Below, one piece after another: positions 4,198 through 46,532 of a DNA stretch of 64,000 nt (positions are counted from its first letter, which is position 1; each line of letters starts with the position of its first letter). Source of the stretch: Leptolyngbya sp. Heron Island J (GTDB lineage: Bacteria; Cyanobacteriota; Cyanobacteriia; Phormidesmidales; Phormidesmidaceae); NCBI RefSeq assembly GCF_000482245.1, contig NZ_AWNH01000115.1:124001-188000 (forward strand), given 5' to 3'. Both the position numbers and the translations under genes were made by a program. The notes under the pieces are model-generated. The model was not told the DNA's origin. It did not search any database and saw only the letters and a program-made list of their open reading frames with translations.

Positions 4198-5063
4198 TGG
4201 ATGACGAAGCAGACGTTCAACATACCCTGGCTGCCCCTGTCTCATGTACAGGGGTGGGGCTCCACCTGGGGCAGACAACGCAAGTCACTTTGCTCCCTGC
4301 GCCTATCAACAGTGGTCGCCATTTTGTTCGTACAGACTCGGGGCCTAATCTTATTCCAGCCAGTGTGGCAGCGGTGAGCCAGACTCGTCTTTCGACCCAG
4401 CTGGGTGTAGAAGAAGGGCCACAGGTGCGTACGGTGGAGCATTTGCTGGCGGCGCTGTGGGCCGCTGGTGTAGACAATGCTCGCATCGAGATCGATGGCC
4501 CAGAAGTCCCTTTGCTGGATGGCTCTTCCCGTGATTGGACTGGCCTGATCCAGTCGGTCGGCATAGCGGCGCAGTCTGCGCCACGTCGTCCCTGCATAGC
4601 GCTCAAGGAGCCAATCATTGTCAGGGATGGGGATGCCTATGTGATGGCGCTACCTGCCTCAGAGTTGCGGTTTAGCTATGGTATTGACTTTCCTATAGCG
4701 GCGATTGGTAATCAATGGCATAGCTGGTCTCCGGCCGCTGGAGACTTTGCCGAGGTGGTGGCACCGGCACGAACATTTGCGATGGCGCACCAAATTGACG
4801 GGTTGCGATCGCAAGGTTTAATCAAAGGTGGCAGTCTGGAAAATGCTTTAGTTTGCGATCAAGAGGGTTGGCTTAATCCCCCGCTGCGATTTGCAAATGA
4901 ACCGGCACGTCATAAACTTTTAGACTTAGTAGGGGATCTCAGTTTATTAGGTGTTCTCCCTACGATGCATGTGACCGCTTATCGAGCCAGTCACAGTCTG
5001 CACGTGCAGTTAGCTCGTCAGTTAACTGCCCTTTGCGTTGCAGAAACATCGGCTTCCGCTTAG
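4197..5063 (+). CDS. lpxC: UDP-3-O-acyl-N-acetylglucosamine deacetylase
   Basis: Zinc enzyme for the first committed step of lipid A synthesis, removing acetate from UDP-3-O-acyl-GlcNAc. Zinc ligands are visible as H82 in VEHLLAAL and in [10 protein letters not shown] near residue 240 (His and Asp). The motif [12 protein letters not shown] is also typical. At 288 aa it is close to the usual ~300. The start overlaps the bamA stop by one base; fabZ follows 37 bp downstream. Confidence 0.96.
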
Positions 5064-17897: not shown

Positions 17898-19418
17898 TTA
17901 TCTAGAGAAGAAGTTATCCTTCTTGCGCACAAACAGGTCTGTAAAGAATGAGATGACCGTACGCTTTTCGGTCTTGATGTTGGCATTGATCGACATCCCA
18001 GACCGCAGCGTATAGGTTTCACCTCTAGATTCGAGCACCTGAGATGTTAGCTGAATCTCGGCGGGGAATCGGTAGAACGGATAAATCTCATCTGGGGGCA
18101 AGGCATCGTCCCCAATATGGACTAAATACCCATCAATATCACCGTATTCACTGTAGGTAAAGGCATCGATCCGCACATCAACTTGTTGACACTCGGCTTC
18201 AATCCCTGCCTGGTTATCGTTCTGGACGGCAACCTGACAATCATCAGTCAGCTGTACAAAACCAATATCCTGGTTGGGAATAAAGACGCGGGCAATGAGA
18301 TTGTCTTGGGGGACAATTTCTAAAATCGGTTCGGTGGAGTTAGCGGCATAGCCAGGTTGGTTGGCCCTGAGGTTAAAGACGGCCCCGCGGACTGGGGCCG
18401 TTAACTCGCGAAATCGTAGCTGTTCTTCAAGCTGGGCAATGCGACTACCCAGTTCTTGCCGCTGGGTTTCATTTTGTAAGACGGTTTGTCCCAGGGTGCT
18501 GTCGATGGCGGAAATGCGTTCCCGATTGTTGCGAATTTGATCGCGACGGGTACGTTCAAATTCGAGTTCAGCCCGCTCAATTTCAGCTTCAGCCTGGTTG
18601 ATTTGAGCATTGAGACGGCTAATTTCATCCTTTAAGGTGTTGACCCGCGTTAATCGAGTGCTGACTTCTTGTTCTTGTTGTAATCGGCTCAGCTCTGCAA
18701 CGGCTCCTTCGGTTTCTAGCCACTCTAATCGGCTCAGAATTTCTTCGTTAGTTCTTAAATCATTTTCGGCATTAAGCAGTTCAGAGCGGGCCTGGCTCAG
18801 ACGACCCTCCAAGTCTTTAATTTGCTCACGGTTTTGGATTTGTCGTGTTTGGATTTCTCCCCTGGCAATGGTGACATCGGCTGCGGCCTCAGCGGATAAG
18901 TCCGCCGTATCACCATTAATTTGGGCCTGATAGATGCGATTGCTCGCTTCTAACTGATTCCTTTCTTCTAGCCGCTGTTGCAGATCGGCGGCGGTTATCT
19001 CGCTAACAGCATTGCCATCGCCGTTGCCATTTTGGGCGCGATAGATTTCAGTTTGCTCTGAGAGATATTCTCGAATCTGCAGTAATGACTCTAGTTCAGC
19101 GTTGGCGGCTGACTGATTGAAGGTGATGAGGACGTCACCTTTTTCGACTAAATCGCCCTCTCTGACATGGATTTTTTCGATCACGCCACCGCTGGGGGTT
19201 TGGACCGGCTGTACTACATCTACGGGTTCTAATTTGCCCTGGGCTGGGATGGTTTCTTCGACTCTGGCGAGAAATGCCCAGAGAATACTGATACTGGTAA
19301 CACCCAGAATTGCCCAAACAATGGCCCGTGACCACACGGGAGACTGCCGCAAGATAACGGGTTGATCAAAGGGTTGGGGTTGGCTGGCACCGCTACCTTG
19401 TACTTGTTGAGATGTCAT
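17898..19418 (-). CDS. HlyD-family membrane fusion protein (type I secretion adaptor)
   Basis: Periplasmic adaptor linking the ABC exporter to an outer-membrane channel. One N-terminal transmembrane helix (RAIVWAILGVTSISILWAFLA), a lipoyl-like half-motif (VQTPSGGVIEKIHVREGDLV), a long Gln/Glu-rich coiled coil (about residues 110-330) and a C-terminal beta domain with the second half-motif (FRELTAPVRGAVFNL). The frame runs back to 19595 inside the ABC gene, but the ATG at 19418 follows the ABC stop by 2 bases and gives a normal 506 aa. Third gene of the operon. Confidence 0.93.
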   Translation of the reverse strand: MTSQQVQGSGASQPQPFDQPVILRQSPVWSRAIVWAILGVTSISILWAFLARVEETIPAQGKLEPVDVVQPVQTPSGGVIEKIHVREGDLVEKGDVLITFNQSAANAELESLLQIREYLSEQTEIYRAQNGNGDGNAVSEITAADLQQRLEERNQLEASNRIYQAQINGDTADLSAEAAADVTIARGEIQTRQIQNREQIKDLEGRLSQARSELLNAENDLRTNEEILSRLEWLETEGAVAELSRLQQEQEVSTRLTRVNTLKDEISRLNAQINQAEAEIERAELEFERTRRDQIRNNRERISAIDSTLGQTVLQNETQRQELGSRIAQLEEQLRFRELTAPVRGAVFNLRANQPGYAANSTEPILEIVPQDNLIARVFIPNQDIGFVQLTDDCQVAVQNDNQAGIEAECQQVDVRIDAFTYSEYGDIDGYLVHIGDDALPPDEIYPFYRFPAEIQLTSQVLESRGETYTLRSGMSINANIKTEKRTVISFFTDLFVRKKDNFFSR

Positions 19419-38566: not shown

Positions 38567-40070
38567 CTGACTTTTCCTACTAAGTCTGGTTCGCTAGTTG
38601 CCACCCTTCAACCAGGTCCTGTAACTTTGCCCATCCTTTCCAAAGGACTTGAATCCCGATAGGAGTTTTCCGTCGATGTTCTAAATAGCCGCCCAAACGC
38701 GCAATCGATTCAATAGCCCATTGGACAGTCAATGTCTTGGGTAGGCGAGTGGCCTTCGCTTTGAGGACCTGAATTTGAACGGGTGAGAGAACAGTTTCAG
38801 CCGGTAGCTTTGGCTGAGTGCGTTTTAAGTAAGTCAATCGCAACAAATCAGCAGCAATGATACACAAAAAGCCCAGTCAGGGTTTCATCCCTTCAGCAGC
38901 GAGGCGATAGCGTTCCACTTGACAGCCCGATTTCAAGAGTTTGTGAAACTCTTCTACGTGCCACCGATAGCCATACCATCTCAGAATGGTCAGTGCCTGT
39001 TCAACGGTGGTCACCGGTTCACTGGTAAGTAACATCCAGGAAACCGAGTCTTCTCCCTCGGGACAATCGACTTCATCAGCATAGACCGCATAAACCTGAA
39101 GTTGGCTATCCGTGCCTAAGCGGACTGGAGACCGTAACTGAACCCGACAGAATCGCACGGCCAGGTTAGCGGTACGGGCCTTTCGAGTTTTGGTGGCCGG
39201 TCAGTCAACTGCATGATAGGCCGCTATTGGCTGAATCTCCAGCTTGTCCCATAACCGATTGGGAGCATGTTCAAGACTGCGATTGTGAGCGGCCCGCACC
39301 ACGACACCGGTATGGCTCAACTCGTTGACTTGGTCGAACACTTCAGCAATATCTCCTTCTCGGTCAAAGACATGGATAACGCGCGTTGAGGCAGCGACTT
39401 CTTGCTCCAGTGTCATCATCGCTTCGACCCAGCGATACGATTCTTTTTCTTCAAAAGGCCGAGCGCGCTTCGCCTTGCGGGCTTCAGCCCGACGTTGTTT
39501 TTTCTGTTGTGGTGTTTCGTTGGCTGGAGGCTTGGCACGATGCTCACGGTTCCAGAGCTTTTGCCACAACAATCCCAAGGGTTGACCTTGGTCTGGCTCA
39601 ACCGCAAGCGCACTGTGGAGTAGTAATCCATTGCCACCATTGCCTTGGGGGTCATAGCCTTCTCGTTTTTCTAGAATCGAGCCATAGTCCAAATAGGTGG
39701 TGTCTCCAACGCTCAATACTATGGATTGGCAACTCACAAGCTCGGTTTTCATCTGGCAATGAGGCTGAATGATCTTTTCAAAGCGGGTTTTCGGATTGGC
39801 GAAAACGCATACGCCCGTTTCAGTTCCTTTGCACTCTCAAAGACACTCGATAGGCCCTGTCCAAATTTTTCACTCAGCGCTTGACCGATACTCAACGCGC
39901 GACGGGTCAAACGGCGATCTCCTCATGCGCACGTTCCAAAATTCTGCTCATAACGCTCTGTACTCATCGGTAACTTCCTGGATATCGGTGCACTCACTTT
40001 AACGGATGTTGAGGTTATGAGCTAGAAGCAATGTCTATCAAGGGTTTGAGCACTTAGTAGGAAAAGTCAG
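38567..40070. mobile_element. Decayed IS4-like insertion sequence, 1504 bp
   Basis: Bounded by perfect 19-bp terminal inverted repeats, CTGACTTTTCCTACTAAGT (38567-38585) and its complement (40052-40070). The inside encodes a broken IS4-type transposase on the minus strand. No matching direct target duplication is obvious in the 9-11 bases beside each end, so the flanks have changed or the element is old. It sits between dacB and tRNA-Val. Confidence 0.85.
38580..39992 (-). pseudogene. IS4/Tn5-type transposase, inactivated
   Basis: One frame from 39752 down to 38580 is interrupted by two in-frame TGA codons: one after YHAVD (39201-39203) and one after EGMKP (38874-38876), where the next residues LGFLCIIAADLLRL suggest that a Trp codon became TGA. 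Catalytic-type segments remain: LSVGDTTYLDYG, HVFDREGDIAEVFD (Asp) and the YGYRWHVEEFHKLLKSG block (YREK-like, Glu). The N-terminal part (39753-39992) is shifted and holds further stops. Confidence 0.85.
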
Positions 40071-40275: not shown

Positions 40276-40642
40276 TCAACCTTCCCACTCTTTAAGGGTA
40301 TTGCTTCAGATCCAGTTATATAAGGACTTGAAGCAAATTAACTTACCCTGAACGGGTGCTGTAATACTATAGCTCAAAAATGCAGCTGACTCCCCTAATT
40401 CACTAAAAAGTGTAGGGGAAACGCGTGGCATAATCTGACGATTATTGATGGTGATGTTTCACATCCCTATGCGATCGCAGTAAGAAAGTTTCATATTAAA
40501 CTCCAGGCCATTCATCAGGGCAAGCTCGATAATAAGTTTCTAGGCCGGGTGGGTTTATCCATCCGCTTTTTGTATTGGCCGCTTGGGGTGTGGCTCCGGT
40601 TCAAGCAGATTGCGATCGCACACGGCAAATGCAGATTCTTGG
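40276..40642. other. 367-bp stretch with a startless open frame
   Basis: On the plus strand a frame runs from about 40410 to 40690 without stop but also without an ATG or GTG start. Its translation (for example VRKFHIKLQAIHQGKLDNKF and RFLYWPLGVWLRFKQ) is somewhat protein-like and overlaps the end of the ABC ATPase gene on the other strand. It may be a gene remnant or chance. No other signal is seen. Confidence 0.3.
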
Positions 40643-41419
40643 TTATGCCGTCACCAACCCCACGTCTTGCTTGCCTCTTAACAGGTCGGTGATTTCGTGT
40701 TTATAGGCTTGAAATTGATCGCCGCGTTTCATGGTGTAGGTCCGTTCTTCAGGTAGATCCACAATAATCTCTCGCTGGATTGTGCCTGGACGGGCTGTCA
40801 TGACATAGACCCTTTGGGAGAGAAAAACGGCCTCTTCGACGTCGTGGGTGATCATTAAAATGGTGCAGCGGGTACGTTTCCAGAGGTCTAACAGAAATAA
40901 CTGCATAGCTTCTTTAGTTTGTACGTCCAGGGCTCCAAAGGGTTCATCCATAAGTAGGATTTTGGGATGACAGGCCAGGGCACGTGCGATCGCAACCCGT
41001 TGTTTCATCCCCCCCGACAGCTCCTTAGGTAACGACTTAGCAAAATTAGCTAGCCCCACCACATCCAAATAATAGCTCGCTCGTTCACGCCGCAGCTTTT
41101 TAGCCATGCCCTGAAGTTTTAGACCAAATTCAACATTGCGCTGCACCGTCATCCAGGGATAAAGCGTGTACTTCTGGAACACCATGCCCCGATCCGCACC
41201 TGGGCCGGTAACCGGCGCAAAATCCACCGTAATCTCACCGCCTGTGGGCATATCCAATCCGGCCACTAAGCGCAATAGCGTCGACTTACCTGAACCAGAA
41301 GCACCGACGGCACACACCAGTTCTCCAGTTTCAACATGCATGTTGATGTCTTTGAGCGCCAGCAACGGCCCTTGCTTGGTTTGAAATTGTTTATAAAGGT
41401 TAGAAATTTCAAGATGCAT
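40643..41419 (-). CDS. ABC importer ATPase, guanidine gene cluster
   Basis: ATPase of the nitrate/sulfonate/taurine (SsuB/TauB-like) class, 258 aa: Walker A GASGSGKST, signature LSGGMKQR, Walker B ILLMDEPFGALD, H-loop ITHDVEEA. Three bases downstream of the permease gene. Last gene of the riboswitch-led unit. Together with the permease and binding protein it is likely to import guanidine; this is from operon context, not sequence. Confidence 0.9.
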   Translation of the reverse strand: MHLEISNLYKQFQTKQGPLLALKDINMHVETGELVCAVGASGSGKSTLLRLVAGLDMPTGGEITVDFAPVTGPGADRGMVFQKYTLYPWMTVQRNVEFGLKLQGMAKKLRRERASYYLDVVGLANFAKSLPKELSGGMKQRVAIARALACHPKILLMDEPFGALDVQTKEAMQLFLLDLWKRTRCTILMITHDVEEAVFLSQRVYVMTARPGTIQREIIVDLPEERTYTMKRGDQFQAYKHEITDLLRGKQDVGLVTA

Positions 41420-41421
41420 AA

Positions 41422-42267
41422 TTAATCAAAGGCCCATCTACAGCGTGTCTTGAGCACCCAACGAAAAAGTAGGTCAAAGGCAAAGCCAATCACCCCCAAC
41501 ATAATTAAACAAGCAAAAATCTCATCGGTTTTGAAGAAGCGTTGGGCTAACAAAATCCGCCGTCCTAAGCCCTCTTCTGCAGCTACTAGCTCAGCAATGA
41601 CTACCAGATTCCAGGACACCGCCACATTAATGCGAAACGTATCGATAATGCTAGGGACGATATAAGGAGTGATCACTGATAGCAACACCTGCCAGCGCTT
41701 TCCCCCTAACGTATATGTAGTCTCAATCAGGTCTTTCGGAACAAACTTAACCGCATCCATAATCATCAGAGTGTTATAAAACACTGTGCCGATAAAAATC
41801 AGCGCAATTTTAGGCTCTTCATTAAGACCTAAATAGATGATTAGTAGCGGAATAAAGGCAGGCGCAGGCATGTATCGCAGAATGCCAATAATCGGCTCCA
41901 TCATGGCACGAACACTGGCAAAAGCGCCCATGCTAATACCCAGCGGTATGGAAAGCACCGCAGCTAGCGCAAATCCACTCGCCACTCGCCCAAAACTTGC
42001 CATGATGTCTCGGGTGACAAATCCCTGTGCCCAAAGACGCTGAAAGGCATTGATAACAGCCTGAGGGCTGGGTAAAAAATTAGGATTGACATTCGTATAG
42101 TTAGACAGCAGCCACCAAATTGTCAAAGGTACTACGACTGAAGCTACCATCAACGCCCAGTTGAGAGCATCGGGAATATCTTCTGCAATGCGCCAAAACA
42201 CCGTGGGTCTTAAGCTCTGAGGTGCTGGCTCAAAATCATCTTTAAATGGTTCCGATGCCTGGGTCAT
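41422..42267 (-). CDS. ABC importer permease, guanidine gene cluster
   Basis: Permease of the SsuC/TauC/NrtB type, 281 aa with about six membrane helices. The ATPase-contact (EAA) region is PKDLIETTYTLGGKRWQVLLSVITPYIVP (about residues 177-205). The N-terminal ~30 residues are cytoplasmic and acidic. Gene spacing of 2 bases to the ATPase indicates one transcript. Substrate inferred as guanidine from the hydrolase and riboswitch upstream. Confidence 0.9.
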   Translation of the reverse strand: MTQASEPFKDDFEPAPQSLRPTVFWRIAEDIPDALNWALMVASVVVPLTIWWLLSNYTNVNPNFLPSPQAVINAFQRLWAQGFVTRDIMASFGRVASGFALAAVLSIPLGISMGAFASVRAMMEPIIGILRYMPAPAFIPLLIIYLGLNEEPKIALIFIGTVFYNTLMIMDAVKFVPKDLIETTYTLGGKRWQVLLSVITPYIVPSIIDTFRINVAVSWNLVVIAELVAAEEGLGRRILLAQRFFKTDEIFACLIMLGVIGFAFDLLFRWVLKTRCRWAFD

Positions 42268-42337
42268 GAATTGATTGTATAAAAACGAATGTTAAAAAAT
42301 AATCAGGGGCGCATAGCCATGCACCCCCACGGTTGCT

Positions 42338-43375
42338 CTAAAGGCCCTCGGCGTAGGCTTTGACAAAACTGTCATCTAAGATGGCCCCTAAATCATCAGG
42401 GCCAGCCTCAATAAAGCCCACATCGACCATAAAATCATTCATCTTCTGCGCAGCAAACGGCATATGCTTCATGCCATTGCCTTCAGTAAATGCTTCCAAA
42501 TTCTCTTCAATTGTAAAAATTCGAGTCCCCGCTTGAAACTCCTCGTATTCCTCCACAGAAACACCAGAGCGAGCGGCCATAATTTTATTGGACTCCTCTG
42601 GATTTTTAGCAATGTAGTCGAGGGTGGCAAACCATGTGTTGACTAGCGCCTGTACCTGATCAGGCTGCTCATCAATGACTTTTTGGCTAACGACTAATAG
42701 GTCAGGAATGATGCCGGGATACTCTTTGGAGGACAGGAGTTCCTTGCTACCTGGCCGTTCCAGAGCAACTCCCCAGAAAGGGGGCCAACCGGCAAATGCA
42801 TCAACCTGCCCCGAGGCAAAGGCCGCTGCTGCCGCGCCAGTTTCCAAGTTCTTAATGGTGATATCCGAACGGGACATGCCTGCTTGTTCCAGGGCCTGGG
42901 TCAACATAAAGTCACCCACCACACCTTCTTCTAAGGCAATGGTTTTATCCTTTAAATCTTCAATACTGTTGATGCCTTCAGCCACAACAACTTTGTCATT
43001 GCCTGCCGAATTGTCATTGACTAAAACAGCTACTTCACCATTAACAGCATCCGCCGCAAATGAAATCGTATCGTTGAGAGTTTGACTGTTGCCATCCAGT
43101 TGGCCAGCGGCAAATGCCTCCATGGAGGCGAGATAACCGTCAAACCATTTAAGTTCTACGTTAGCTCCATTGGCCGCAAATAAGCCCTTCTCTTCGGCCA
43201 CCGCCCAGGGTAACCAACCGGGCCAGTTGCTATACCCAATCACCAAAGGAGCACTAGAAGCCGCTGGTGCTGCTGACTCGCTCACTGTTTCTGGTGTATT
43301 GTTTGCGCAGCCAACGGCAACCACCAAACCGAAGACAAATGCTAAACATGTCGATAAAAATTGTTGTCGTCGCAT
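42338..43375 (-). CDS. ABC substrate-binding lipoprotein, guanidine gene cluster
   Basis: NrtA/SsuA-fold binding protein with a lipoprotein signal (VVAVGCANN, Cys about residue 23). IGYSNWPGWLPWAVAEEKGLF and FDGYLASMEAFAAGQLD are the N-terminal binding segments; GAAAAAFASGQVDAFAGWPPFWG follows in the hinge area. 345 aa from the ATG at 43375, preceded by GAGG at suitable distance; an ATG 12 bases earlier is possible. Aromatic and acidic residues near the site would suit a cation such as guanidinium, but this is inference. Confidence 0.88.
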   Translation of the reverse strand: MRRQQFLSTCLAFVFGLVVAVGCANNTPETVSESAAPAASSAPLVIGYSNWPGWLPWAVAEEKGLFAANGANVELKWFDGYLASMEAFAAGQLDGNSQTLNDTISFAADAVNGEVAVLVNDNSAGNDKVVVAEGINSIEDLKDKTIALEEGVVGDFMLTQALEQAGMSRSDITIKNLETGAAAAAFASGQVDAFAGWPPFWGVALERPGSKELLSSKEYPGIIPDLLVVSQKVIDEQPDQVQALVNTWFATLDYIAKNPEESNKIMAARSGVSVEEYEEFQAGTRIFTIEENLEAFTEGNGMKHMPFAAQKMNDFMVDVGFIEAGPDDLGAILDDSFVKAYAEGL

Positions 43376-43446
43376 CACGTACCTCATTCAATTGGAGAAC
43401 TCTTCGAAGTTAGTAGTTACCCTGTTTTATACAAGACCCTGCAGCG

Positions 43447-44142
43447 TCATACTGTGAGCTGTAAACGGTTTGGCCGATTAGTAACGGTCTGAGCAACCCA
43501 TTCAAACCAGGCTGCCAGTCCCTCACCAGTTTTGGCCGATACTCGAAATATGGTGACGTGAGGATTAATTTGTCTGACATTGGCTTCAATCTGCTCAAGG
43601 TCGACGTCCACATAGGGAGCCAAATCTGTTTTGGTAATCAGTAAACAATCGGCTTCTCGAAACATGACTGGATATTTCAGCGGTTTGTCCTCTCCTTCAG
43701 TCACGCTAAGCAGGGCCACCTTGGCATGTTCGCCCACCTCAAATTCGGCGGGACAAACCAGGTTGCCTACGTTCTCAACAATGACTAAATCTAGATTCTC
43801 TGGGTCATGCTGGTGCTGCAGCTGATGAATGCCGCCAGCCACCATTTGTGAGTCGAGATGGCAGGAACGACCGGTATTGATAGCGACGACTGGGACACCG
43901 TACTGACGTAGCCGATTGGCATCTAGTTCAGTGGTCATGTCACCTTCAATGACGGCAATCTTGAGGGTTTGTAACCCTTTGAGGGTACTTTCAAGCAGCT
44001 GGGTTTTACCCGCCCCAGGGCTACTCATCAGGTTGATGCAGGTAATTCCCCACTGATCAAAATGGGCGCGGTTATGGTCTGCGCCCTGCTGATTGGCATG
44101 GAGCAGATTCATTTCTAAAGCGGCGTCAAAGGTTTGGTGCAT
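43447..44142 (-). CDS. hypB: HypB-type nickel GTPase chaperone
   Basis: GTPase delivering nickel to metalloenzymes. Walker [12 protein letters not shown], the metal-site segment [11 protein letters not shown] (Cys-His) and the G4 motif ITKTDL are present. The His-rich N-terminal tail of some HypBs is absent. The frame opens at 44169, but the ATG at 44142 begins [18 protein letters not shown], the usual cyanobacterial HypB start. With no hydrogenase genes nearby, the target is most likely the nickel guanidine hydrolase of the same operon. Confidence 0.92.
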
Positions 44143-44174
44143 TGTTATTAGGCGGTGAGCAATGGGCAATGATT

Positions 44175-44206
44175 GTGTAGGGGCATTGCATGGAAGGCTC
44201 CTACAC
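44175..44206. repeat. Imperfect 32-bp palindrome between hypA and hypB
   Basis: GTGTAGGGGC pairs with GCTCCTACAC around a core TTGCATGGAA, with two mismatches and one G-U pair. It resembles the palindromes at 908-943 and 34628-34667. Inside the operon it might trim or stabilise the transcript. Confidence 0.6.
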
Positions 44207-44216
44207 GGGCTGGTTT

Positions 44217-44570
44217 TTAGGCATTAACGCATTCAAACCGGTCAATTTTTAATTCCCGACCAGAGCGAATATCCTCCATCGGGCTATGACATGTGGGGCA
44301 ACCATATTGGTTACCAAAGTCAGGCCGATAATCAGCCTGGCAGGTATGGCAGTGGGCCACCAGGGGCACATCCTTAATTACTAACTGGGCACCGTCCAGA
44401 AACGTGCCTTGGGTCTGGGCATCAAAGGCAAACTGTAGGCTAGCGGGCTCGACACAGGTAAACGCGCCAACAATTAGATGCACCTTTTGAATGGTGGGCT
44501 GCTCTGGCTGAGAATCCCACCATTCTCGAATGGTGCCAATTAAGGCTTTGGTCATATCGGTTTCGTGCAT
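44217..44570 (-). CDS. hypA: HypA-type nickel/zinc chaperone
   Basis: Partner of HypB in nickel insertion. Nickel ligand His2 ([10 protein letters not shown]) and the structural zinc site, two CxxC motifs (CHTCQAD and CPTCHSP, about residues 74-95), are intact. 117 aa, normal size. Starts 13 bases after gdmH. Its companionship with a ureohydrolase instead of a hydrogenase is the hallmark of the guanidine hydrolase operon. Confidence 0.94.
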
Positions 44571-44583
44571 GGGTGGATATGGT

Positions 44584-45762
44584 TTATTGCCAGTCGCTAC
44601 CGACGTCTATATTGGCCTCGGTGTGAATATAGTCGGGGGTGCTGGTGCGGGGCAGCTGGCCTGATTGCACTAAATGGGCCATGGCATCACAAATCACGCG
44701 GGTGGCCATCAGGGAGGTCATATCGCTGATGTCGTAGGGGGGAGACACTTCGACGACTTCTAAACCGCAGACGGGCGCATTACGGATAATTTTGCCTAAT
44801 AGATATAAGGCCTCACGCGGTAAGAGCCCTCCTGGTTCTGGCCAGCCTGTGCCAGGGACAAATCCGGCGTCAATGCAGTCAATATCGAAGCTAATGTAAA
44901 CGCAGTCGGTGCCGTCAAGGGCGCGTTCCAGGGCAAAATCAGCCGCTGCATCCAGCCCCATTTCAGTAATATCGGTGACTGTGAGAATGTTGGTGGCCCG
45001 CTCGCGACAGACTTTCACGCCCTGGCGAGGTACCTGCCAGCCGCCAATCCCCAGCTGTACGAGGTTGTTGGCGGGGGCGTTTTTCATGTTGGTGGCATGA
45101 AACCAGGGACAGGTATGCATGCGTTCGTCTAAATCCGTTTCTTGGGTGTCGACATGGCGATCAAAGTGGATAATGCCGACTTTTTTGTCGCCTAGGTGAC
45201 GACAGACGCCGCGCACAGTGGGGAACCCAATGGAGTGGTCACCGCCAAGAATAATCGGAAAGGCACCAGAGCTAAAAATATGGGCAATCCCTTTGGAAAT
45301 TTGGTCAAAGGATTTTTCGTTGTTGGCTGGAATGGTAAAAATATCGCCTACATCACAAAGGGTAATCTGCTCTCGCAGGTCAATCCCCATTTCAAAGTTG
45401 TAAGGCGTGTAGAGCGCAGAAATACGCCGGATACCCTGGGGACCAAACCGGGTACCGGGGCGATAGGTGGTGCCAGAATCATGGGGTACCCCGACAATGG
45501 CAACGTCATAGTTACCAACCTTGCGGACATCCTCTATATAGGGAGCTTTGAGAAAGGTATTAATCCCGGCGTAGTGGGGGAGTTCGCCGCGAGAGAAGGT
45601 GGGAATGGTGCGATCGCGAATACTAGCCGCCGCCTCTAAACCATATTCCAACCCCTGGTCCACTTCCTGTTGCCACCCTGTCAGCGGCAATTGCGCCTCA
45701 CGCTCCAAAGCACGACTAGCTTCTGAATCAGCTGGGTTACGAAAGGTAGGTGTATCACTCAT
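44584..45762 (-). CDS. gdmH: Guanidine hydrolase, nickel-dependent ureohydrolase
   Basis: Splits guanidine into urea and ammonia. Ureohydrolase fold, 392 aa, with an N-terminal extension of ~80 residues compared with agmatinases. Metal ligands are in GGDHS (H176), the block DRHVD (D201, H203, D205) and DIDCID (D293, D295). The block reads DRHVD where arginase/agmatinase usually have DAHxD. The context, a guanidine-I riboswitch upstream and hypA-hypB-ABC downstream, matches the Synechocystis sll1077-sll1082 arrangement, where the enzyme was shown to hydrolyse guanidine (from memory). Agmatinase activity is the alternative, but the context argues against it. Confidence 0.92.
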   Translation of the reverse strand: MSDTPTFRNPADSEASRALEREAQLPLTGWQQEVDQGLEYGLEAAASIRDRTIPTFSRGELPHYAGINTFLKAPYIEDVRKVGNYDVAIVGVPHDSGTTYRPGTRFGPQGIRRISALYTPYNFEMGIDLREQITLCDVGDIFTIPANNEKSFDQISKGIAHIFSSGAFPIILGGDHSIGFPTVRGVCRHLGDKKVGIIHFDRHVDTQETDLDERMHTCPWFHATNMKNAPANNLVQLGIGGWQVPRQGVKVCRERATNILTVTDITEMGLDAAADFALERALDGTDCVYISFDIDCIDAGFVPGTGWPEPGGLLPREALYLLGKIIRNAPVCGLEVVEVSPPYDISDMTSLMATRVICDAMAHLVQSGQLPRTSTPDYIHTEANIDVGSDWQ

Positions 45763-45829
45763 GTTTTTGGTGCATAACGCTAACGAGGCGGGAAGATTGA
45801 ATCACTATTGACCTAAAAGAAGATTACAA

Positions 45830-45887
45830 AATCGAAAACCCGAGAGAATGTTGAGCAGACAGAGACTGCTGAACGACTTCTCCCGGG
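45830..45887 (-). terminator. Riboswitch-controlled terminator of the gdmH operon
   Basis: On the minus strand CCCGGGAGAA (from 45887) pairs with TTCTCTCGGG (ending 45839), a 10-bp stem with one G-U pair and an inner CAGCAG/CTGCTG-like hairpin, followed by TTTT CGATTTTGT. The 5' arm overlaps the 3' end of the riboswitch core (AAGCCCGGGAGA), so guanidine binding would prevent terminator formation and switch the operon on. Confidence 0.85.
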
Positions 45888-45985
45888 CTTTTATCCCGCC
45901 GTGTACCAGAAAACTGGCGGTTTCTCTCGGTCCAGACGTTCAACCTCAAAACATCTCGAATGTTAAACCGGAACCCTAGAAACCT
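45879..45985 (-). promoter_or_regulatory. Guanidine-I riboswitch (ykkC class)
   Basis: Minus-strand sequence carries the three conserved blocks in order: CTAGGGTTCCGG (45979-45968), GGACCGAGAGA (45933-45923) and ACACGGCGGGATAAAAGCCC (45904-45885), ending CGGGAGA. These are the diagnostic segments of the ykkC guanidine-I aptamer. It lies ~117 bases upstream of the gdmH start and is followed by an overlapping terminator, so it is expected to turn expression on when guanidine is bound. Confidence 0.95.
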
Positions 45986-46184
45986 GTATTGATTGGGTCT
46001 AGTATTCAAGCTCAGCAACCAGGAGGGAGTATCTTGTGTTACCAAATTTCGGATTCAATTGTGACGTATTATTTTTGGCAAGAAGAGAAATAAAGATTAT
46101 ATGTAAAAAGTCCAAAACGTAGTCGATGGATAAAATACGGTTTGAAGATTAAAACGTGTGTCCTAGAGTCTGAAAAAGAGGGCG

Positions 46185-46532
46185 ATGGTCGGGTTAATTA
46201 AGTCAGTTTTGGTGGGTTTGCTGATTAGTGTATGGCTGACCATACCGGTTGCGATCGCTGATCAATCCTTCGATGTACGCTCCTCCGTTCAGACCCACGG
46301 TGAAGACGCTTCCTCAGCCTTGACCATTGCACCGGAACTCACCAATCCGGCTGAAATTCCGCTGACTGAGGTTCAGTCTGAACCCATTTCTCTATTTACC
46401 GGGTTTGATAGTTATGCATTGACGCCAGCTGAACGGGCTAAGCCCTCTACACCTGACGCGTCCGAAAATACTATAGAAACCACCCTGGAGCACTGGCTCT
46501 CTTCATTTAAACGCTTGATTGAGGGCAACTAG
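46185..46532 (+). CDS. Small exported protein of unknown function (115 aa)
   Basis: Signal peptide at residues 1-25 (LIKSVLVGLLISVWLTIPVAIA), then a polar, acidic mature part rich in Ser, Thr, Glu and Pro with an amphipathic C-terminal helix (TTLEHWLSSFKRLIEGN). No motif recognised. Divergent from the gdmH operon: the two start codons are 423 bp apart, with the riboswitch between. Confidence 0.7.
   Translation: MVGLIKSVLVGLLISVWLTIPVAIADQSFDVRSSVQTHGEDASSALTIAPELTNPAEIPLTEVQSEPISLFTGFDSYALTPAERAKPSTPDASENTIETTLEHWLSSFKRLIEGN

Follow-up and report, generated by a model that had tools for sequence, protein, structure and literature searches.

The locus examined here is the guanidine hydrolase (gdm) operon in a window of 64,000 nucleotides (nt) of the genome of Leptolyngbya sp. 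Heron Island J (contig NZ_AWNH01000115.1, positions 124,001 to 188,000), and it raises the question of whether guanidine alone decides when such an operon is transcribed or whether the nitrogen status of the cell is involved as well. The operon was found on the minus strand at window positions 40643-45990 in the order aptamer–terminator–gdmH–hypA–hypB–binding protein–permease–ATPase. It is an ordinary and complete cyanobacterial gdm operon, a further example of an already known one: the function of GdmH, the riboswitch, the chaperones, and the importer have been described for Synechocystis (PMC8390497, PMC12186494, PMC12930504). Our one new addition is a putative NtcA-type promoter in front of the riboswitch; the supposed novelties of an earlier annotation of this DNA (the first-pass annotation) found other explanations. 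The operon is probably under two layers of control, with initiation licensed by NtcA and elongation licensed by guanidine. The sequence parts, their conservation, and the urease and NtcA genes of the host were all computed in this analysis.

Putative NtcA-Type Promoter Upstream of the Riboswitch

Promoters activated by NtcA in class II manner have a −10 element of the form TAN3T about 22 nt downstream of the NtcA site. Upstream of the aptamer, the window contained an exact copy of the NtcA recognition form, GTA-N8-TAC (PMC6316151, PMC12282138), which the first-pass annotation had not seen; six copies of this form occur in the whole window. A −10-like hexamer followed (Table 1), and transcription would start near position 45994, about 4 nt before the aptamer. 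The unit continues beyond the upstream limit previously given to it (40643-45985), as far as the promoter-like region at 46001-46042. A sigma-70 scan of positions 40300-46400 detected no promoter upstream of the aptamer and one promoter-like site, inside the binding-protein gene; the absence of a sigma-70 promoter before the aptamer might be expected of an activator-dependent promoter. The ntcA gene was encoded in the host genome (384.1 bits, above the cut-off of 244.95).

Judging by GdmH, the closest named relatives of the strain are Leptothoe kymatousa and Adonisia turfae, each with 97% identity (loci L001 and L002). In a three-way alignment with them, the site and the −10 hexamer were kept and the flanks were partly different, with a mean column identity of 81%. 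The gdmH gene was present in five of the eight same-genus genomes, all five carrying the NtcA site and AATACT at the same spacing.

The wider sample of relatives comprised 80 loci fetched by similarity to the window GdmH. Covariance model R1, built from 18 aptamers including that of the window (these match by construction), placed an aptamer upstream of gdmH in 70 of 81 sequences, i.e., the window and the 80 loci. Four of its 74 matches were excluded: L025 and L056 (other strand), L019 (weak, other strand), and L007 (before a separate importer). GTAN8TAC was sought in a 150-nt region whose last 10 nt lie within the aptamer model and was found in 48 of the 70 aptamer-bearing loci, window included, and in 37 of 58 after the removal of similar upstream regions. 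Upstream of other mechanical open reading frames (ORFs) of the same loci, 21 of 592 windows of 150 nt contained it. When the search region was shifted upstream by 150, 300, and 450 nt, the site was present in 2/69, 2/69, and 2/67 cases, respectively, and in none of the 70 regions of 150 nt downstream of the aptamer. A set of 68 loci anchored by a regular expression, which preceded the covariance-model set, also had 48 sites; there, the mean over 200 dinucleotide shuffles was 1.5 and the highest count 6, whereas same-composition palindromes and other spacers gave 0–10 of 68.

The distance to the putative −10 element carries information as well. The dinucleotide TA stood at offset 22 after 36 of the 48 sites, versus 16 of 150 other GTAN8TAC copies in the same loci; no other offset between 8 and 43 had it after more than 15 of the 48. 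TG occupied offsets 19–20, the extended −10 position, at 30 of 48 sites, and strict TAN3T was found at offset 22 in 15 of 48. Among the 22 loci without the exact site, three had a one-mismatch site with TAN3T at offsets 21–23, a combination absent from all 43 control windows. For each of the later genes, the 200 nt upstream were examined as well, and the site was found before hypA in 8/77 loci, hypB in 0/72, the binding protein in 4/56, the permease in 0/55, and the ATPase in 3/54; seven of the eight hypA-upstream sites fall at a single position within the gdmH coding region and seem to reflect shared codons. By these counts, the predicted NtcA-type element upstream of gdm aptamers is common and real, but not universal.

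Guanidine-I Aptamer, Terminator, and Proposed Control

The covariance-model search suggested in the first-pass annotation confirmed the guanidine-I aptamer with a score above the gathering score (Table 1); it was the single RF00442 match reported in the host genome, where 150 of 244 first-look candidates were scored. The terminator fold at 45887-45839 had an energy of −24.5 kcal/mol (z −4.66), and none of 200 shuffles was as good. By sequence and fold, the window contains the mutually exclusive terminator/aptamer arrangement of a transcriptional ON switch. The tight overlap of terminator and aptamer, previously put forward as new, is present; as a new feature it was rejected, since the overlap was found in 62 of 69 aptamer-bearing loci (the 70 minus L004, whose tail motif was not found) and is standard in gdm loci. 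With the downstream sequence shuffled in 20 rounds, the overlap appeared in a mean of 9.4 and a maximum of 17 of the 69. A Picosynechococcus locus (L014) had the order hypA–hypB–importer–gdmH, and the model found no aptamer in it, nor upstream of gdmH in 10 other loci.

For the window operon, we infer the following sequence of events. At high 2-oxoglutarate, NtcA would bind at 46042-46029 and activate the class-II-type promoter. Transcripts would continue past the terminator when the guanidine-bound aptamer holds its own 3′ strand, which would prevent terminator formation and let the genes behind it be transcribed. Nitrogen limitation, acting on initiation through NtcA, and guanidine, acting on elongation, would both be required (AND logic). 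The ATP-binding cassette (ABC) transporter would then import guanidine, and GdmH, loaded with nickel by the operon's own HypA and HypB, would hydrolyse it to urea and ammonia.

Same Pairing at Other Guanidine Genes

A pattern combining the NtcA site with the aptamer lead matched 38 genomes of the class, and some of these matches precede guanidine-I aptamers that are not in front of gdmH; four were examined. In genomes G013, G083, and G192 (loci L179, L181, and L182), the NtcA site and the aptamer precede UAAP1 as the first gene, with UAAP2 as the next gene in both UAAP1 loci where it was tested, and no GdmH match at an E-value of 1e-150 was found in these three genomes. UAAP1/UAAP2-type proteins are described as subunits of carboxyguanidine deiminase. 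The carboxyguanidine pathway itself is covered in PMC12186494. In contig C12 of genome G037, the site and aptamer stand before a stand-alone ABC importer 51–66% identical to that of the window, with gdmH on another contig. At least one of the 38 matches, on contig C6 of genome G182, is away from the gdm locus (contig C3) and may be due to chance. Recurrence of the two-layer control at unrelated enzymes speaks for its being functional. Two-key guanidine use, with an NtcA class II promoter and a guanidine-I terminator switch on GdmH operons, a stand-alone importer, and UAAP1/UAAP2 genes, seems likely in many cyanobacteria, a somewhat less secure proposal than that for the window operon itself.

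Gene Content of the Operon

The host genome assembly was 8.06 Mb in length, consisted of 119 contigs, and was 99.26% complete. As previously noted, the operon is a strand-consistent unit: HypA, HypB, an SsuA-type binding protein, a permease, and an ATPase were all encoded on the gdmH strand. The identity of the operon, its riboswitch, and the roles earlier ascribed to its parts agree with the covariance-model and sequence matches and with published experiments on Synechocystis (PMC8390497, PMC12186494). Among the 80 related loci, gdmH–hypA was kept in 75 and gdmH–hypA–hypB in 70; all six genes, in order and on one strand, were found in 50. The six-gene set was complete in 49 of the 68 loci with at least 4.5 kb downstream of gdmH. 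Beyond the downstream end of the operon lie a tRNA (40275-40202) and then three neighbouring minus-strand ORFs (38580-39752) that read like fragments of one transposase.

Table 1. Features of the gdm operon region (window coordinates).
Feature	Position	Strand	Evidence and remarks
Predicted NtcA consensus site GTAACACAAGATAC (GTAN8TAC)	46029-46042	−	Sequence reading
−10-like hexamer AATACT	46001-46006	−	Exactly 22 nt after the NtcA site; 4/6 to TATAAT, first T absent
Guanidine-I (ykkC) riboswitch aptamer	45878-45990	−	RF00442 83.7 bits, gathering score 63; model R1 102.1 bits
Intrinsic terminator sharing the aptamer 3′ strand	45839-45887	−	CCCGGGAGAA pairs with TTCTCTCGGG, followed by TTTTCGATTTTGT at 45838-45826
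gdmH, predicted Ni-dependent guanidine hydrolase, 392 amino acids	44584-45762	−	806.6 bits to PDB 7esr/7oi1; PF00491
hypA (ghaA), nickel metallochaperone, 117 amino acids	44217-44570	−	TIGR00100 116.9 bits, cut-off 88.1; PF01155
Dispersed palindromic repeat, hypA–hypB spacer	44175-44206	−	Fold −12.2 kcal/mol
hypB (ghaB), GTPase, 231 amino acids	43447-44142	−	TIGR00073 310.5 bits, cut-off 121.2
Substrate-binding lipoprotein (predicted) of the importer, 349 amino acids	42338-43387	−	TIGR01728 268.1 bits, cut-off 163.5
Terminator-like hairpin and T-run, binding protein–permease gap	42304-42329	−	Fold −17.5 kcal/mol; not conserved
Importer permease, 281 amino acids	41422-42267	−	TauC/SaoP-like, every match below cut-off
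Importer ATPase, 258 amino acids	40643-41419	−	SaoA/TauB/NrtCD-like, below cut-offs among the matches listed

GdmH was 89% identical to the 7esr/7oi1 sequence, which was deposited under the name 'Probable agmatinase 2'; we take 7esr to be Synechocystis Sll1077. The match to 9fek, presumably from Nitrospira inopinata, scored 585.9 bits and the next-best ureohydrolase 174.9 bits. The motifs GGDHS, DRHVD, and SFDxDCxD are dinuclear metal motifs. In the window GdmH, they stand at residues 173, 201, and 291 (SFDIDCID), respectively, in line with the DRHVD metal block pointed out in the first-pass annotation; across the window and the 80 loci, they were kept in 81, 80, and 81 sequences, respectively. 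Its likeness to Sll1077 marks GdmH as a predicted nickel-dependent guanidine hydrolase; for Synechocystis, the activity of GdmH and its role in growth on guanidine are experimental (PMC8390497, PMC12186494). Two more arginase-family matches were found in the host genome, on contigs C12 (71407-72270) and C82 (62-487, partial, near the contig end).

HypA and HypB had been described as dedicated chaperones present without any hydrogenase. The latter holds for the window but not for the genome, which encodes a NiFe hydrogenase large subunit elsewhere. Reading of the ORFs indicates a hoxEFUYH cluster with its own hypA, hypB, and hypF there; apart from HypB and the large subunit, the gene names rest on this reading. 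The operon and hydrogenase-locus chaperones shared 43% (HypB) and 34% (HypA) identity, and an N-terminal MCGHCGC block was present in the hydrogenase-locus HypB and absent from that of the operon. Dedication of the operon pair to GdmH is plausible, though not for the reason first given: the presence of a second, divergent hypA/hypB beside the hydrogenase supports it without proving it. The hypB start was placed at ATG 44142, an in-frame TTG at 44169 being a possible alternative. Urease alpha was also encoded elsewhere in the genome (988.7 bits), so that urea from guanidine could be used further, and was accompanied by ureE/F/G-like genes, as read from the ORFs.

The binding protein of the importer, a predicted lipoprotein by its N-terminus, reached 153.1 bits with TIGR03427 (putative urea ABC transporter binding protein), under the cut-off of 333.9. 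SsuA-like by family and linked to gdmH, the transporter is a putative guanidine importer. In three loci, gdmH–hypA–hypB clusters without an ABC importer had a sodium:solute symporter nearby (L025, 3167-4666, minus strand; L041, 7040-8503, minus strand; L072, 11655-13049, plus strand); the symporter family, PF00474, was tested on the L025 protein. This symporter is a candidate replacement guanidine importer in the three loci. A divergent guanidine-I aptamer of its own (4812-4933, minus strand) accompanies the symporter gene of L025.

Palindromic Repeats and Intergenic Hairpins

The palindrome between hypA and hypB, also taken to be a new point by the first-pass annotation, proved to be a member of a dispersed repeat family. 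The 79-bp spacer had nine matches at seven genomic places, itself included, and the repeat consensus GTAGGGGCN5ATGN4GCCCCTAC was matched at 22 other places (21 times forward, 22 times in reverse), whereas the reversed-pattern control gave no match. The window copy is degenerate and did not match the strict consensus. Both closest named relatives had different palindromes in this spacer, and an inverted repeat of at least 8 bp was present in 4 of 50 hypA–hypB gaps, so that it is not a family feature. As a regulatory element, the palindrome was therefore rejected. Another copy is located on contig C59 of the host (46123-46150) between ureF-like and ureG-like genes, stopping 48 nt short of the ureG-like match at 46198, which is probably a coincidence. 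The hairpin between the binding-protein and permease genes was likewise rejected as a conserved attenuator: a comparable hairpin was found in 4 of 55 loci, the window included.

Alternative Explanations

Guanidine alone might control the operon from a constitutive promoter, the NtcA-like site of the window being a chance or vestigial one. Published work, in the parts available, stresses the riboswitch; many gdm loci have no exact site, the background amounts to about 3.5% per 150-nt window, and the window −10 hexamer is without the usual TA. A number of further results weigh against NtcA-licensed initiation. The five genus genomes contain only four distinct promoter sequences, two of which equal L001 and L002, and the window, L001, and L002, all with AATACT, belong to the minority of 12 sites in 48 that lack TA at offset 22. 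Strict TAN3T at offsets 21–23 followed only 16 of 48 sites, versus 11 of 150 others. The exact site was missing in 22 of 70 aptamer loci. Two Synechocystis-like loci had one-mismatch sites only. Of the 30 best Sll1077 matches in 388 genomes of the class, 27 had an aptamer and 9 the site (shifted windows, 1). Of 30 high-scoring aptamers, 25 stood with gdmH, and 5 of these, one being that of the window, had the site (shifted, 1), as did 1 of the 5 without gdmH. These three samples overlap and are not independent, and one genus without the site is heavily represented. The site followed by an aptamer lead after 35–65 nt (48 in the window) was matched in 38 of the 388 genomes and the reversed control in 8. 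As for expression, the fall of sll1077–sll1082 transcripts under excess ammonium speaks for nitrogen control, but this repression depended on the protease Slr1821 and, in the available text, was not shown to act via NtcA (PMC10094980). In Microcystis at low nitrogen, the importer genes MAE 18880–18900 were up 5.3- to 7.5-fold and MAE 18840 ('speB') was down 1.62-fold (PMC3720943). From the locus numbering, these genes would form the Microcystis gdm operon, and one simple promoter would not be expected to move its first gene in the opposite direction. A further NtcA site inside the operon, ahead of the importer, was rejected as an explanation of these data: within 200 nt upstream of the binding protein, it occurred in 4 of 56 loci (L014, L021, L037, and L044), none of them Microcystis. 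No tie between NtcA and the gdm operon was found in the available parts of the literature searched, which did not include a 2025 PNAS paper on this operon in Synechocystis. Against control by guanidine alone stand the constant distance between the site and AATACT in each of the five same-genus genomes that have gdmH, the 48 sites in 70 loci, and the 22-nt spacing across relatives; we consider such control unlikely and retain two-layer control as the likelier reading.

The roles of the gene products have alternatives as well. HypA and HypB are named for hydrogenase, and the genome has both a hydrogenase and a urease; the operon pair could serve the Hox hydrogenase or urease and be linked to gdmH by chance. 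This is very improbable, given that a divergent pair is already present at the hydrogenase locus, urease has its ureE/F/G-like genes, and the gdmH–hypA–hypB order recurs in 70 of 80 loci; for Limnospira, a chaperone role toward the operon enzyme has already been suggested (PMC8400943). Least credible of all is an agmatinase, or an enzyme for another guanidino compound, in an operon for arginine or polyamine breakdown. The deposited structure names do say agmatinase, agmatinase families match best among the NCBIfam models, and the fold is common to guanidinobutyrase and metformin hydrolase. Yet both agmatinase models scored below their cut-offs (169.8 versus 174.3 and 206.3 versus 302 bits), far from the 806.6 bits of the Sll1077 match; Sll1077 favours guanidine over agmatine (PMC8390497), and a guanidine-I aptamer precedes gdmH.

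Comparison with Known Systems and Significance

The first-pass annotation correctly named Synechocystis sll1077–1082 as a known case of this arrangement; there, the same six genes stand behind a guanidine-I riboswitch (PMC8390497, PMC10094980, PMC12186494). The gene set gdmH–ghaA–ghaB–ABC importer is shared with Synechocystis sp. PCC 6803, and the window GdmH is 89% identical to Sll1077. In the two Synechocystis-like loci (98% identical GdmH), however, the site reads GTAGCA[A/C]AGAACAC, with one mismatch, and TAGGGT stands at 22 nt, whereas the window site is exact. Limnospira indica PCC 8005 has the same six-gene cassette, a ykkC-yxkD leader, and a separate hoxEFUYH locus; a promoter element is not described in the available part of that source (PMC8400943), whereas the window has a putative NtcA-type one. 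The guanidinase operon of Nitrospira inopinata resembles that of the window in its riboswitch control and in a GdmH homologue with an FDRHVDTQ block (9fek), but it has a predicted APC-type permease instead of the ABC importer (PMC12186494). NtcA occurs only in cyanobacteria (PMC6316151). There, gifB similarly combines a nitrogen-metabolite riboswitch with NtcA on one gene; NtcA represses gifB and the ligand is glutamine (PMC6316151), whereas in the window NtcA would activate and the ligand would be guanidine.

The cyanobacterial guanidine switch is in use as an expression tool (PMC13226834); for its users, a native promoter would carry nitrogen control along with the switch. Why cells sense guanidine has not been clear (PMC12186494); a nitrogen-starvation promoter in front of the switch would point to guanidine as a nutrient in these lineages. 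If the proposed control is true, plentiful ammonium would leave little or no induction by guanidine, and guanidine would be an emergency nitrogen source for these cyanobacteria, not a poison for immediate removal.

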